From Acidobacteriota bacterium (GTDB lineage: Bacteria > Acidobacteriota > Vicinamibacteria > Vicinamibacterales > UBA823), in NCBI GenBank assembly GCA_002730525.1, contig PCAK01000044.1, positions 1 to 64,000 of the forward strand: 64,000 nucleotides of DNA, in the 5' to 3' direction. Of the stretch, positions 51,217-56,785 are shown piece after piece. The notes beneath the pieces were generated by a model. It had not been told where the DNA came from, did no database searches, and was given only the letters and a program-made list of their open reading frames with translations. The translations under genes were made by a program, and so were the position numbers. Numbering within the stretch: the stretch's first letter is position 1; each line of letters begins with the position of its first letter.

Positions 51217-52311
51217 TTACTCGGGTAGGACCGGACGCGGATAGGTCGCGGCGTCCGGCGAGAGCGCCTCCAGAAACGCCAGCAGGTCGCGCCGCTGCTC
51301 TGGCGTCAGCTGCCGGGGCACCAACTTCTCGTCCAGCGCATCGTTGGCGATCCCGCCGGCCAGCATCAAATCGACAGCCTCCGCGAGCGTCTCGGCAGTC
51401 CCGTCGTGAAAATACGGCGGGTGGTCCGCCACGCCGCGCAACGTCGGCGTCTTGAAGGCCCCGACGCTGGCCGCCAGCACGTCAGCTTCGGCGGCAGCCG
51501 TTAGGTACGCGGCACGCCCCTGGTCGGGCACGTCGGCATCCATCCCGATACCGACGTTGTGAAACAGCGCATCCGAATAGACCGGCGGCAGGTGGCAGAG
51601 CGTGCACTGCGCGACCTCGGAGAAGACGCCCGATCCCCGGCCCACCGCATTCGTCTCCAGCGACGCAGCGTCTTTCGGCAACCGGTCCCAGGTGGTATCG
51701 CCGGCATGGATCGTTCTCACGAACGAGGCCAGCGCGTCGACGATGCCGGCCGGCGTGGGCGGCGCGTCGAACGTCTCGCTGAACGCGTCACGGTACCCCG
51801 CGACCTGGCCGAGTTCGTCGGCAATCCGGTCTGGGTCGGCACCCATCTGCCCTTCCCACGCGGCCAAAATCTGCGCCTCGAGTCCCTGCGCCCGCCCATC
51901 CCAGTACAGCTCTCTGAGGAAGCCAGCGCCGTACAGGCTCGGCGTGTGGCGCGCGTTCGGGCTGCCATCGAACTTCGGCGACTGCGTCAGACCGTCAGCC
52001 CAGCCACGCTCTGGCAAATGACAGGTCTCGCACGACATCTGCTGCGTGGCCGACAGCCTCGGATCGAAGAACAGCAGCTCGCCGAGCGCGATCTTCTCGA
52101 CCGAGAGCGGATTGGCGGCGGGGACGACGAGCGGCTGGTCGATCAACCCCTCGGGCATCGTGAAGCTGAACGCCTCCGGGGTCACCGTCAGCGCGCCTTC
52201 GATCGCCTCGGCCGTCGGTTCGAGCGGCGGCGGTGCCAACGGACGTCGCGCAGCTTCGAAGAGGGCAAACGCCAGCCCCAGTACCACCAGACCCCAAACG
52301 GTTCGCGACAT
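51217..52311 (-). CDS. Di-haem cytochrome c peroxidase / MauG-like protein
   Basis: A 364-residue periplasmic enzyme with an N-terminal membrane anchor (TVWGLVVLGLAFALFEAARR). Two haem c sites are clear: Cys94-x2-Cys97-His98 (CETCH) and Cys236-x2-Cys239-His240 (CTLCH). The family pattern continues with GELLFFDPRLSATQ before haem 1, SLYGAGFLRELYWDGRA between, and FKTPTLRGVADHPPYFHDG after. It reduces hydrogen peroxide or modifies a partner, using electrons from a small cytochrome that is not seen here. It ends near the DUF4399 gene, with convergent orientation. Confidence 0.93.
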   Translation of the reverse strand: MSRTVWGLVVLGLAFALFEAARRPLAPPPLEPTAEAIEGALTVTPEAFSFTMPEGLIDQPLVVPAANPLSVEKIALGELLFFDPRLSATQQMSCETCHLPERGWADGLTQSPKFDGSPNARHTPSLYGAGFLRELYWDGRAQGLEAQILAAWEGQMGADPDRIADELGQVAGYRDAFSETFDAPPTPAGIVDALASFVRTIHAGDTTWDRLPKDAASLETNAVGRGSGVFSEVAQCTLCHLPPVYSDALFHNVGIGMDADVPDQGRAAYLTAAAEADVLAASVGAFKTPTLRGVADHPPYFHDGTAETLAEAVDLMLAGGIANDALDEKLVPRQLTPEQRRDLLAFLEALSPDAATYPRPVLPE

Positions 52312-52903: not shown

Positions 52904-53770
52904 TCACGTCGACTCGATCCGGCTGGCCGCGCGCGCCATCCGTTCGCGCAGCTCGGCGTACGCCTCCGGAGGCACACCCACGCGGCCCAGATGCCCGGCA
53001 CGATGGTCGGTGTCGCCATGGAAGTCCGAGCCTCCGGTGGCCGCCAGATTCAGGCTCCGGGCCTGATCCAGCAGTCGACGTCGAGTCGGTGCGTCGTGCT
53101 GGCTGTGATACACCTCGACCGCGTCCAGGCCCGCCTCGGCGAGGCGACCGAGTAGCCGCCGGTCGCGGCTGAGACCCGGATGCGCGAGCGAGGCGACACC
53201 GCCCGCTTCCGCAATGGCCTCGACGACCCGCTCGGGCGTCTCCCCTTGGCGTTCCACCCAGGTCGCACGGCCGTCTCCCAGCCAGCGATCGAACGCCTCC
53301 TGCACCGACCGCACGTGCCCGGCGGCGACCAGCGCCTGCGCCAAATGTGGACGCCCCAGGGAGCGGCCGTCGACGGCGCGCGCGGCGAGCAACGCCTCGA
53401 TATCCACCCCGAAGCCCTGCGCCGACAGTCGGTCGGCCATCGCACGCAGACGGTCAGCACGGTGACCTCGCTGCCCCTCGAGGAACGCGTCGAGGCCCGG
53501 CGGCGACGGCGCCAGGAAATACCCGAGGATGTGCACATCGCGGCCGTCGCGGACCGCCGTGATCTCGATGCCGGGCAGCACCTCCAGCTCGTGCGACGCG
53601 GCCAACGCCAGCGCCTCCGGCACAGCGGCCATCGTGTCGTGGTCGGTGACGCTGAGGGTACCAACGCCGGCCGCCGCGGCGCGAGCCAGGAGGTCCGCGG
53701 GCGGGCACGCGCCGTCGGAGGCCGTCGTGTGGAGATGAAGGTCGATCACGCCCGTGTCAGGCGCTGGCAC
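52904..53770 (-). CDS. PHP-domain phosphoesterase (YciV/RNase AM type)
   Basis: A 288-residue PHP-fold enzyme with manganese-binding motifs: DLHLHTTASDG (His12, His14), VTDHDTM, IEITAVRDGRDVHILGYFL, SLAHPG and SDFHGD. The length and order match the family that removes 3'-phosphate from 3',5'-bisphosphonucleosides and trims 5' ends of RNA. A polymerase-independent form is certain, since no DNA polymerase domain is attached. It overlaps the Fur-erythrin gene by 14 bp, so the two are translated in tandem. Confidence 0.9.
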   Translation of the reverse strand: MPAPDTGVIDLHLHTTASDGACPPADLLARAAAAGVGTLSVTDHDTMAAVPEALALAASHELEVLPGIEITAVRDGRDVHILGYFLAPSPPGLDAFLEGQRGHRADRLRAMADRLSAQGFGVDIEALLAARAVDGRSLGRPHLAQALVAAGHVRSVQEAFDRWLGDGRATWVERQGETPERVVEAIAEAGGVASLAHPGLSRDRRLLGRLAEAGLDAVEVYHSQHDAPTRRRLLDQARSLNLAATGGSDFHGDTDHRAGHLGRVGVPPEAYAELRERMARAASRIEST

Positions 53771-54758
53771 GGCGGGACCGACGGGATGGGCGTCGCGCCG
53801 CGGTCCGCTTGGGCCCCGATCGCTTGGCTAGTGCGCGATACTCGCGGATCAACAATTCGAGATGTTCGCGCTCTTCGTCGGCAAACTCGAGAAAAATCTG
53901 CTTCCCTTCGGAGTCCTCGAATCGCTCGCCGTATCGCTTGAAGAATTTGTGCGAACCCCGTTCGCACCGGATGCCAATCATCAGCGCCTGCTTGGCGTCA
54001 ACGCCCTTGGAGAGCTTCTCGGCGCCGGCAGTGAACAGACCGTTCGCCGCGCCCTTGAAGAAGAGGAACGTCGGCCGCGCCTCGAGCTCGGGATCCTCTA
54101 CGAGCAACTCCTTGTAGCGCGCCTCCAGCCGGGTCAGGTGCTCGCGTTCCTCATCGGCCAGCCGCTTGAAGACTCGCCGACCGCGCGCGTTGCTGGTCAT
54201 CGACGCGGCCCGCGCGTAGAACGCCATGCCGCTGCGCTCGATGGCAATCGCGATGCGCAGCGCGTCGCGCGCGAACAGCAACTCGGTCGTCGCGACGCTG
54301 TCGGTCGGTTCCCGCCCGGTCTTGCATTCCTCACACGTGCCGTAGATCTGGAGCACACTCTGGCTCGTGGCGAACTGGCGGGCGGCCGCAACCTCCTCGA
54401 TCAGCACCTCGATGTCCGAGCTCAGGAACTCGAACGACCGGTTGCAGGTCTTGCAGATGAGGTGGAAGTGCCGCGGGTGCCGATACGAACGCTCGAACCG
54501 GAATCGGCCTTCGCCAAAATCGACCTTGCGCGCGATCTCGGCGTCCACCATCCACTGCAGGGTGCGGTAGACCGTGGCCCGGCTGATCTTCTGGTCTTCC
54601 TTCTTGATGATCTCGACGAGGTCATCGGCACTGAGGTGTCCCTCCTGGCGGAGGAACACGTTCACGATCAGGTCGCGCTTGCTCGACCGCTTGCCGCCCG
54701 CCGGGCGCAGACGCTCGAGATACGCGGATGGCTGTTCCATGAGGTGAAGATGCGACAA
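53757..54758 (-). CDS. Fur-family regulator fused to a ferritin-like erythrin domain
   Basis: A 333-residue fusion. Residues 1-150 are a Fur-family winged helix (SSKRDLIVNVFLRQEGHLSADDLVEII, RATVYRTLQWMVDAEIARKVDFG) with two zinc Cys pairs (Cys102/Cys105 in CKTC and Cys142/Cys145 in CEEC). From about 155 to 310 there is a rubrerythrin-like diiron domain. Its two halves have matching metal-ligand motifs: IAIERSGMAFYAR with EEREHL (Glu204, His207), and RCERGSHKFFKR with EEREHL (Glu296, His299). The C-terminus is a basic, Arg-rich tail. The fusion may sense peroxide or iron through the diiron site and alter DNA binding. The neighbour is an ErpA-type Fe-S carrier. Confidence 0.87.
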   Translation of the reverse strand: MSHLHLMEQPSAYLERLRPAGGKRSSKRDLIVNVFLRQEGHLSADDLVEIIKKEDQKISRATVYRTLQWMVDAEIARKVDFGEGRFRFERSYRHPRHFHLICKTCNRSFEFLSSDIEVLIEEVAAARQFATSQSVLQIYGTCEECKTGREPTDSVATTELLFARDALRIAIAIERSGMAFYARAASMTSNARGRRVFKRLADEEREHLTRLEARYKELLVEDPELEARPTFLFFKGAANGLFTAGAEKLSKGVDAKQALMIGIRCERGSHKFFKRYGERFEDSEGKQIFLEFADEEREHLELLIREYRALAKRSGPKRTAARRPSRRSRRASA

Positions 54759-54804: not shown

Positions 54805-55161
54805 TCAGACGCCGAACGACGAACCGCAACCGCAGGTCGACTTGGCGTTGGGATTCTTGATCGTGAACCCGCCGCCCATCAGATTGTCCACGAAGTCAAC
54901 TTCAGCGCCGGACAAGTAGCGGAGGCTGATCGGATCGACGAAGAGCTTGACGCCGTTCGACTCGAAGATGCGATCGGACTCGGCATCGCCCCCGCCCTCT
55001 TCGATCATCAGGCCGTACTGAAACCCGGAGCACCCACCACCCTGCACGAAGACGCGAAGGCCCGCCTCCTGCTTGCTCTCTTCGCTGAGGAGCGCGCCGA
55101 TCTTGGTGGCCGCAGCCGAGGTGACGTTGATGACGGTGGCGCTGCTCGTGGCGGTACTCAT
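54805..55161 (-). CDS. A-type iron-sulfur cluster carrier (ErpA/IscA family)
   Basis: A 118-residue protein with the invariant three cysteines: Cys44 in GGGCSGFQYG, and Cys110 and Cys112 in the C-terminal CGCGSSF. These carry a [4Fe-4S] or [2Fe-2S] cluster to target enzymes. The fold is as in ErpA/IscA (VFVDPISLRYLSGAEVDFV). Nearby [4Fe-4S] enzymes, class I fumarase downstream of it on the same strand and serine dehydratase, are likely clients, though that is inference. The N-terminal 18 residues are Ser/Thr-rich and probably flexible. Confidence 0.92.
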   Translation of the reverse strand: MSTATSSATVINVTSAAATKIGALLSEESKQEAGLRVFVQGGGCSGFQYGLMIEEGGGDAESDRIFESNGVKLFVDPISLRYLSGAEVDFVDNLMGGGFTIKNPNAKSTCGCGSSFGV

Positions 55162-55267
55162 AGAGGCGTTTTCTCCCTTAGTTATCGGCCATTATAGCCG
55201 CCCGGCCACGGGCCCAGCAAGGTGGTAGTCGCCCGGTCGCCCGGTCTCTCGTGAAGGGCCGGCCGGA

Positions 55268-56785
55268 TCAGGCCCCTAGTTCGGCCAGGCGCTCGCCCGA
55301 GGCCGCTTCGACGTCGCGGTGGAGGCTGGCGCCATGGGCGTCCATGGTCACGATGGCGGGAAAGTCACGGACCTGAAGATGCCACATCGCTTCGGGGGTA
55401 CCGAATTCGAGAAGCGAGACCCCCTCGACGTGCTCGATCGCGCGGGCGTAGAACTGGGCGGCGCCACCGATCGCGTTGAGGTAGACCGCGCCGGTCTCCC
55501 CGAGCGCCGCGAGCGTCTTGGTGCCCATGCCGCCCTTCCCGATCACCGCGCGCACGCCGTAGCGGCGGAGAATCTCTCCCTGATAGGGTTCCTCACGGAT
55601 GCTGGTCGTAGGACCCGCCGCCGTGACCCGCCAGGTCTCGCCCTCGCGCATGACGACCGGTCCGCAATGGTACAGGACGCCGTCTCGCAGATCGACCGGC
55701 GGATCGTGCGACATCAGGTGGGTGTGGACGGCGTCGCGTCCCGTATGCACCGGGCCCGAGATGAGCACGACGTCGCCGACGCGCAGCTGGCGGATCGTCG
55801 CTTCGTCGATCGGCGGCGTCAGCACCACCTCGCGGCCGGTCTTGACGAAGCCTTCGGCTGAGGTCATCCGCGCCACCGGAGCGGCTGGATCCCGATAGAG
55901 CCACCGCTGGATCGCGCCCGACCCGGCGTCGAGCACCACCCCGAGGCGGCGAAACGCCCAGCAATCGTACGCCACCGAGACGAAGAAGCTCGCGGGTAGC
56001 CGGTTCCGCGCGCCGACCTTGCACCCGATGAGCGAGACGTCGCCGCCGAACCCCATCGTGCCGACGCCGAGCTCGTTGACCGAGGCCATGACCGACCGCT
56101 CGACCTCGGCGAGGCGTGGGTCGTCATTGACGTCGTCCAGCGTCCGGAACAACTGGGCCTTGGCGTGGGCGTAGCCGGACGTCCGGTCGCCGCCGACGCA
56201 GACGCCGACCGCGCCGGGGCTGCAACCCTTGCCTTGCGCCTGCCAGACGGCATCCAAGATGCATTTGCGAACGCCGTCGAGGTTGCGGTCGGCGCGCCCG
56301 AGGTGCGGCAACTCGATCGGCAGCGCGTACTGGGCGTTCGTGTTCTCGCAGCCGCCCCCCTTCAGCAGCAGGCGGATCTCGATCTCGTCACGCTCCCACT
56401 GATGAAAGTGGACAATCGGCGTGCCCGGCCCAAGATTGTCGCCGGAGTTCTCACCGGTAATCGAGTCGACGGAATTCGGCCGCAACTTGCCGCACCGCGT
56501 CGCCTCCACGACCGCGCGTCGGATCTCGACCTCGATCTCGATCTGATTGGCGCCGACGGGCGTCTGGACCTCGAAGGTCGGCAGCCCGGTGTCCTGGCAG
56601 ATCGCGCCCTCGCAGTCGGAGGCCTGATCGATGTTCAACGCGATGATGTCGAGCGCCTGCGCGGACCGGTTGCCCGCCGACTCGACGCCCACGGCGGCCG
56701 ACATGGCGGCGCGAACGTCGGGGGGAAGATTGGTCGAGGTCTGGACGATCAGTTCGACAGTGCTGTCGAATAGCTGCGGCAGCAT
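55268..56785 (-). CDS. fumA: Fumarate hydratase class I
   Basis: A 505-residue [4Fe-4S] fumarase of the TCA cycle, which interconverts fumarate and malate. The N-terminal alpha part has AICQDTGLPTFEVQTPVG, ENSGDNLGPGTPIVHFH and GGGCENTNAQYALPI. The C-terminal beta part has LISGPVHTGRDAVH, VRAVIGKGGMG and LEFGTPEAMWHLQV. Alpha and beta halves are in one chain as in E. coli FumA/FumB (about 550 residues), slightly shorter. Cluster cysteines occur in both halves of alpha (CQDTG, GCEN). It lies 106 bp before the ErpA-type gene and probably needs that carrier for its cluster. Confidence 0.93.
   Translation of the reverse strand: MLPQLFDSTVELIVQTSTNLPPDVRAAMSAAVGVESAGNRSAQALDIIALNIDQASDCEGAICQDTGLPTFEVQTPVGANQIEIEVEIRRAVVEATRCGKLRPNSVDSITGENSGDNLGPGTPIVHFHQWERDEIEIRLLLKGGGCENTNAQYALPIELPHLGRADRNLDGVRKCILDAVWQAQGKGCSPGAVGVCVGGDRTSGYAHAKAQLFRTLDDVNDDPRLAEVERSVMASVNELGVGTMGFGGDVSLIGCKVGARNRLPASFFVSVAYDCWAFRRLGVVLDAGSGAIQRWLYRDPAAPVARMTSAEGFVKTGREVVLTPPIDEATIRQLRVGDVVLISGPVHTGRDAVHTHLMSHDPPVDLRDGVLYHCGPVVMREGETWRVTAAGPTTSIREEPYQGEILRRYGVRAVIGKGGMGTKTLAALGETGAVYLNAIGGAAQFYARAIEHVEGVSLLEFGTPEAMWHLQVRDFPAIVTMDAHGASLHRDVEAASGERLAELGA

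Follow-up and report, generated by a model that had tools for sequence, protein, structure and literature searches.

Fur is the textbook bacterial iron sensor and works through one or two small metal sites: once its regulatory site is occupied by metal, the dimer closes on a palindrome that precedes iron-uptake genes. PerR, a peroxide-responsive paralog, shares the Fur fold. Its regulatory ligands include Asp104 (PMC8063818). MbfA joins an erythrin-type domain to a VIT1-type iron exporter, and plants and animals possess iron sensors, BRUTUS and FBXL5, built on a hemerythrin domain. In BRUTUS, the iron in a helical diiron domain becomes less labile upon oxidation, and iron uptake is then shut down (PMC12022348). 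Here, we describe a protein from an Acidobacteriota genome of the order Vicinamibacterales in which a Fur domain and a rubrerythrin-type ferritin-like domain occupy a single chain. A search of the open-licence literature returned no description of such a Fur-rubrerythrin fusion (one may exist), and, if its second domain does act as a sensor, the protein would be the first transcription factor known to us with a built-in one of rubrerythrin type. We propose that the protein is probably the global Fur-type iron-uptake repressor of this order, with a fused rubrerythrin-type diiron domain that tunes repression to iron and redox state.

The gene lies in the window, the 64,000-nucleotide stretch of DNA that we analyzed, and comprises the following features:

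53757 to 54740, minus strand: Fur-erythrin fusion gene, 327 amino acids plus stop (open reading frame call, Pfam, orthologs)
54342 to 54698, minus strand: Fur domain, residues 15-133 (Pfam PF01475, invariance, fold match to metal-bound Fur)
53811 to 54305, minus strand: rubrerythrin/erythrin-type four-helix domain, residues 146-310 (Pfam PF02915, AlphaFold2, Foldseek, PDB profile search)
54138 to 54239, minus strand: first predicted diiron half-site, E168, E198 and H201 (alignment, motif reading)
53862 to 53963, minus strand: second predicted diiron half-site, E260, E290 and H293 (alignment; the invariant C259 adjoins)

A preliminary description of this DNA had reported the open reading frame, both domains and two EEREHL motifs, and our open reading frame and Pfam searches find all of them in the same place on the minus strand. 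Its reading frame was right, but the TTG start that it proposed at 54758 (333 amino acids) is disfavored against an ATG six codons later in the same frame, at 54740, with which orthologs such as that of locus L034 begin in register. Both families that it named are found by Pfam in the one chain: FUR at residues 15-133 (4.3e-26; 91.9 bits against a cut-off of 23.1) and Rubrerythrin at residues 159-214, with a second half-match at 53826-53984 (9.4e-12, above cut-off). The Fur domain contains the winged helix, a regulatory site (H35, E83, H91, H93 and E104) and four zinc cysteines, which are the two pairs seen in the preliminary description, C96/C99 and C136/C139; all four are conserved, and we predict that they form a Cys4 zinc site. 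The C-terminal domain carries two E...ExxH half-sites, and of the six diiron ligands originally listed, five stand while the fourth is Glu266 in that numbering rather than Glu267.

These features set the protein apart from each of its nearest described counterparts. Like Fur, it has the winged-helix domain, the zinc cysteines, the regulatory ligands and a 7-1-7 palindrome before iron-uptake genes; unlike Fur, it has roughly 170 extra residues that form a diiron-type domain, and its candidate operator is GC-richer. The additional metal site of Fur, to which Asp at position 92 and His at 128 contribute, is seemingly lost in this order, with Phe or Tyr at position 92 and Ser, Ala, Thr or Asn at position 128, where most diverged fusions have His. 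With rubrerythrin/erythrin-type proteins (PF02915, COG1633; TM1526 1vjx, 2fzf, 2oh3) it shares a four-helix bundle and two E...ExxH helix pairs, and it matches their PDB profiles at 1e-10; it differs in being fused to a DNA-binding domain, in lacking a rubredoxin domain and in having a long conserved linker with the motif FLFFKG. In MbfA, too, an erythrin-type domain has become naturally fused with an iron-homeostasis protein, but MbfA is a membrane exporter rather than a regulator, and our protein scores 27 bits against the NCBIfam MbfA model, far under its cut-off of 450. The best score against NCBIfam equivalog models for PerR and Fur is 74 bits, under a cut-off of 220.

Predicted structures agree with the core of the preliminary description, a Fur regulator joined to a ferritin-like domain with a full set of diiron ligands. 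An AlphaFold2 model of the whole chain, built with 53 sequences, has a mean pLDDT of 80.7, and the C-terminal domain modeled alone is a confident helical bundle (pLDDT 88.0, pTM 0.83); the predicted diiron ligands all lie on four long helices. The Fur part of the model resembles structures of Fur with metal bound, at target TM values of up to 0.86. Foldseek searches with the C-terminal domain return ferritin-like matches at a probability of 1.00 with weak E-values (best 4.6e-3), namely MJ0754, 2fzf, 2oh3, TM1526 and the manganese catalase KatB, and a sequence profile of the domain matches 2fzf and TM1526 in the PDB at about 1e-10 with both halves aligned.

Among 40 near relatives, 39 gave a match to the fusion query, in almost every case a full-length fusion, and in a class-wide protein search about 151 of 162 Vicinamibacterales genomes gave matches of full- or partial-fusion strength. 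The 31 genomes from sister orders of the class gave matches of stand-alone-Fur strength or none, and no fusion. Ten other families of the phylum have diverged fusions, with approximately 31-44% identity; this distribution, together with the near-universal presence in the order, argues that the fusion did not arise by chance. A Fur-domain tree neither supports nor excludes a single origin, and plasmid records yielded stand-alone Fur matches only, none spanning most of the fusion. Our scan of genome contigs for further fusions used patterns typical of the order. Clear orthologs also occur in records titled Acidimicrobiia, Woeseiaceae and Bifidobacterium breve (L041, L054, L084, L086, L087), which are probably mislabelled metagenome bins. 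Within genome family f15 (G031, G071-G081), five genomes have no detected fusion and the exact operator described below is absent; in this family, either of the two, regulator or operator, may have been exchanged.

The window's genome has no FUR-family protein besides the fusion, and the fusion is likewise the only Fur found in G001, G003, G004, G006, G007, G015, G016, G020 and G022, all of which also carry sites of the candidate operator described below. The window's genome has no PF00210 ferritin and no clear FeoB, its FeoB_N matches being of the strength of other GTPases. Outside the window, a region of the same genome (G000:C1:2586-3143) has 27% identity to the C-terminal domain in a frame with two stops, and is possibly another ferritin-like domain.

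We assessed conservation in an alignment of 131 sequences, 104 from the order and 27 diverged fusions. All six diiron ligands are unchanged in 104 of 104 order sequences, as are H35, E83, H93, E104, C136 and C139, and a single ambiguous base is the sole difference at H91, C96 and C99. The Fur regulatory ligands are kept across all 131 sequences except for one ambiguous base, and the Fur ligands are unchanged in the 27 diverged fusions. C259, which adjoins E260, is invariant in the order and mostly Met or Leu in the diverged fusions. Invariant ligands would also suit a protective enzyme, in which the fused domain, as a ferroxidase or peroxidase acting locally, would remove Fe2+ or H2O2 from around the Fur site, guarding it and sending no signal of its own. 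Rubrerythrin-type centers are commonly peroxidases or ferroxidases, and the lack of a PF00210 ferritin in the window's genome fits such a role. However, a Pfam scan finds no rubredoxin FeS4 or similar electron-donor domain in the chain, which stops after the helices, and the invariance of the order-specific FLFFKG motif and C259 suggests specific contacts beyond catalysis; we consider this explanation unlikely.

Ten of the 27 diverged fusions lack one or more diiron ligands while keeping the helical domain, and all ten belong to genome family f44 (L128, L130-L137, L139), where they form a natural series of diiron-site decay. This lineage provides a natural comparison: the domain has survived here although the site is no longer complete, which implies that sensing by the diiron site is not required everywhere. 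The lineage also lends some weight to the idea that the four-helix part mainly dimerizes or stabilizes the regulator, its metal being structural or dispensable. Yet not one ligand is changed among the 104 sequences of the window's own order, and a purely structural domain seems to us quite improbable.

The fusion gene sits in a conserved neighborhood, whose features in the window are as follows:

54805 to 55161, minus strand: erpA, A-type Fe-S carrier gene, directly upstream of the fusion (NCBIfam, 137.7 bits against a cut-off of 117; synteny)
55191 to 55196, minus strand: TATAAT-like -10 hexamer preceding erpA, present in most orthologous loci (by eye, consensus match only)
55268 to 56785, minus strand: fum, whose product we take from sequence reading to be fumarate hydratase; upstream neighbor in most longer loci (synteny)
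52904 to 53770, minus strand: PHP-domain phosphoesterase gene, overlapping the 3' end of the fusion gene (Pfam/NCBIfam, synteny)

The Fe-S carrier gene mentioned in the preliminary description is therefore that of ErpA. In two sets of loci, ErpA lies beside the fusion in 61/65 and 41/42 cases and the PHP gene in 61/65 and 36/42; the order fum - erpA - fusion - PHP is conserved, and these neighbors are always co-directional with the fusion. The diverged fusions do not have this arrangement. In orthologous loci, the sequences upstream of erpA, of fum and of the fusion showed no palindromic operator. Two genes downstream of the fusion, an open reading frame with two CxxCH motifs (51217-52311, minus strand) resembles di-haem cytochrome c peroxidase and occurs, beyond the window's genome, in its closest relative only.

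A candidate operator appears instead before iron genes. Palindromes of the form TGAGA...TCTCA precede feoB in four relatives and ferritin in another. In a set of 30 genomes, the pattern TGAGAYTNARTCTCA, a Fur-box-like 7-1-7 palindrome, occurs at 16 sites and its reversed form at none. Across 193 genomes of the class it has 117 sites in 81 genomes (summed over the result table), again against none for the reversed control. All 81 genomes belong to the order and the 31 sister-order genomes have no site; half of the genomes in the order lack the exact match. Sequences upstream of feoB and ferritin genes did not contain the classical 15-mer TGATAATNATTATCA, and a similar palindrome, TGAGAATNATTCTCA, which is less degenerate than TGAGAYTNARTCTCA, occurs once in the 193 genomes.

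Thirty-three of 41 inspected sites lie just upstream of genes for FTR1 (14 recognized through homology to the FTR1 of the window's genome, and one through Pfam), FeoB (six), TonB receptors (eight), PepSY membrane proteins (three) or ferritin (one); these counts are descriptive, since the queries were drawn from the same loci. Of the other eight, three precede a CbiX-like protein, three a family without a Pfam match and two nothing recognized. Two recurrent families behind the operator (L207, L212, L218; L215, L216, L243) have no obvious iron role: a secreted, CbiX-like protein and a coiled-coil protein without a Pfam match (the latter in the first three loci). For the window's genome, the candidate regulon was read from one pattern search; the best site there has one mismatch (G000:C40:103739) and is followed by FTR1 (3.3e-38), with 58 bases from the site's start to the FTR1 ATG. 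The genes behind the sites thus make iron uptake the candidate regulon. As the sole Fur found in genomes that have sites, the fusion is the natural candidate to bind the palindrome, and we infer that it does so, although another type of regulator is possible.

The preliminary description had called the protein a peroxide or iron sensor. Iron is the better supported of the two signals, since the candidate operator precedes iron-uptake genes. A sensor of the PerR kind, derepressing peroxide-defense genes, would accord with the attached redox-capable center and with a Cys/His ligand spacing identical to that of B. subtilis PerR (PMC8063818). Against it, Glu takes the place of PerR Asp104 in each of the 131 sequences, and the candidate regulon is iron uptake rather than peroxide defense, with no catalase, Ahp or peroxidase genes seen behind the inspected sites. 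A literature search on PerR D104E found nothing relevant. Because of Glu104 and the candidate regulon, we judge a PerR-like role less likely than that of an iron-uptake repressor, and in itself very unlikely.

We propose that the iron-uptake repressor acts as follows. Metal in the Fur regulatory site would allow the dimer to bind TGAGACTNAGTCTCA-like operators and shut off genes for FTR1, FeoB and TonB receptors. The four-helix domain would bind two irons at E168/E198/H201 and E260/E290/H293; like other rubrerythrin-type centers, this site may react with O2 or peroxide. Repression would then be adjusted according to how far the site is occupied and oxidized, such that one protein reads both iron level and redox state. 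The model supposes iron in both sites in living cells and a signal from the diiron site to the DNA-binding part. In its favor are the two-domain architecture, the invariant ligands, the sole-Fur status, the conserved neighborhood, the confident fold of both parts and a palindrome before iron genes that stands at 117 to 0 against its reversed control and is limited to the fusion-bearing order; BRUTUS provides a precedent for a helical diiron iron sensor. On the other side, the operator is tied to the fusion by co-occurrence and sole-Fur status, and half of the order has no exact site. In G112, G168 and G188, three MAGs from the order, a site is present with no detected fusion, perhaps through missing contigs; family f15 has the fusion in several genomes and no exact site; and the window's own genome is without ferritin or a clear FeoB.

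A more specific version of this model, which we put forward tentatively and hold at somewhat less than even likelihood, is a coincidence detector in which the Fur site reads Fe2+ and the diiron site reads O2, peroxide or ferric state, the two together setting iron uptake. The proposed mechanism resembles that of BRUTUS and FBXL5 in that diiron occupancy and oxidation control iron uptake (PMC12022348), and differs from it in an unrelated diiron fold and in acting on DNA directly rather than through a ubiquitin ligase. If true, FBXL5 and BRUTUS would have in this protein a bacterial counterpart that acts directly on DNA.

Since nearly every genome of the order has the fusion, and the window's genome has no other Fur, these bacteria probably use two metal centers in one protein to read iron, and perhaps oxygen or peroxide as well. 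A whole order of environmental bacteria seems to rely on a Fur with a redox-capable diiron module, the only Fur in many of its genomes. The fusion offers a defined protein, a candidate operator and a candidate regulon with which to ask how one molecule may combine iron level with oxygen or peroxide.
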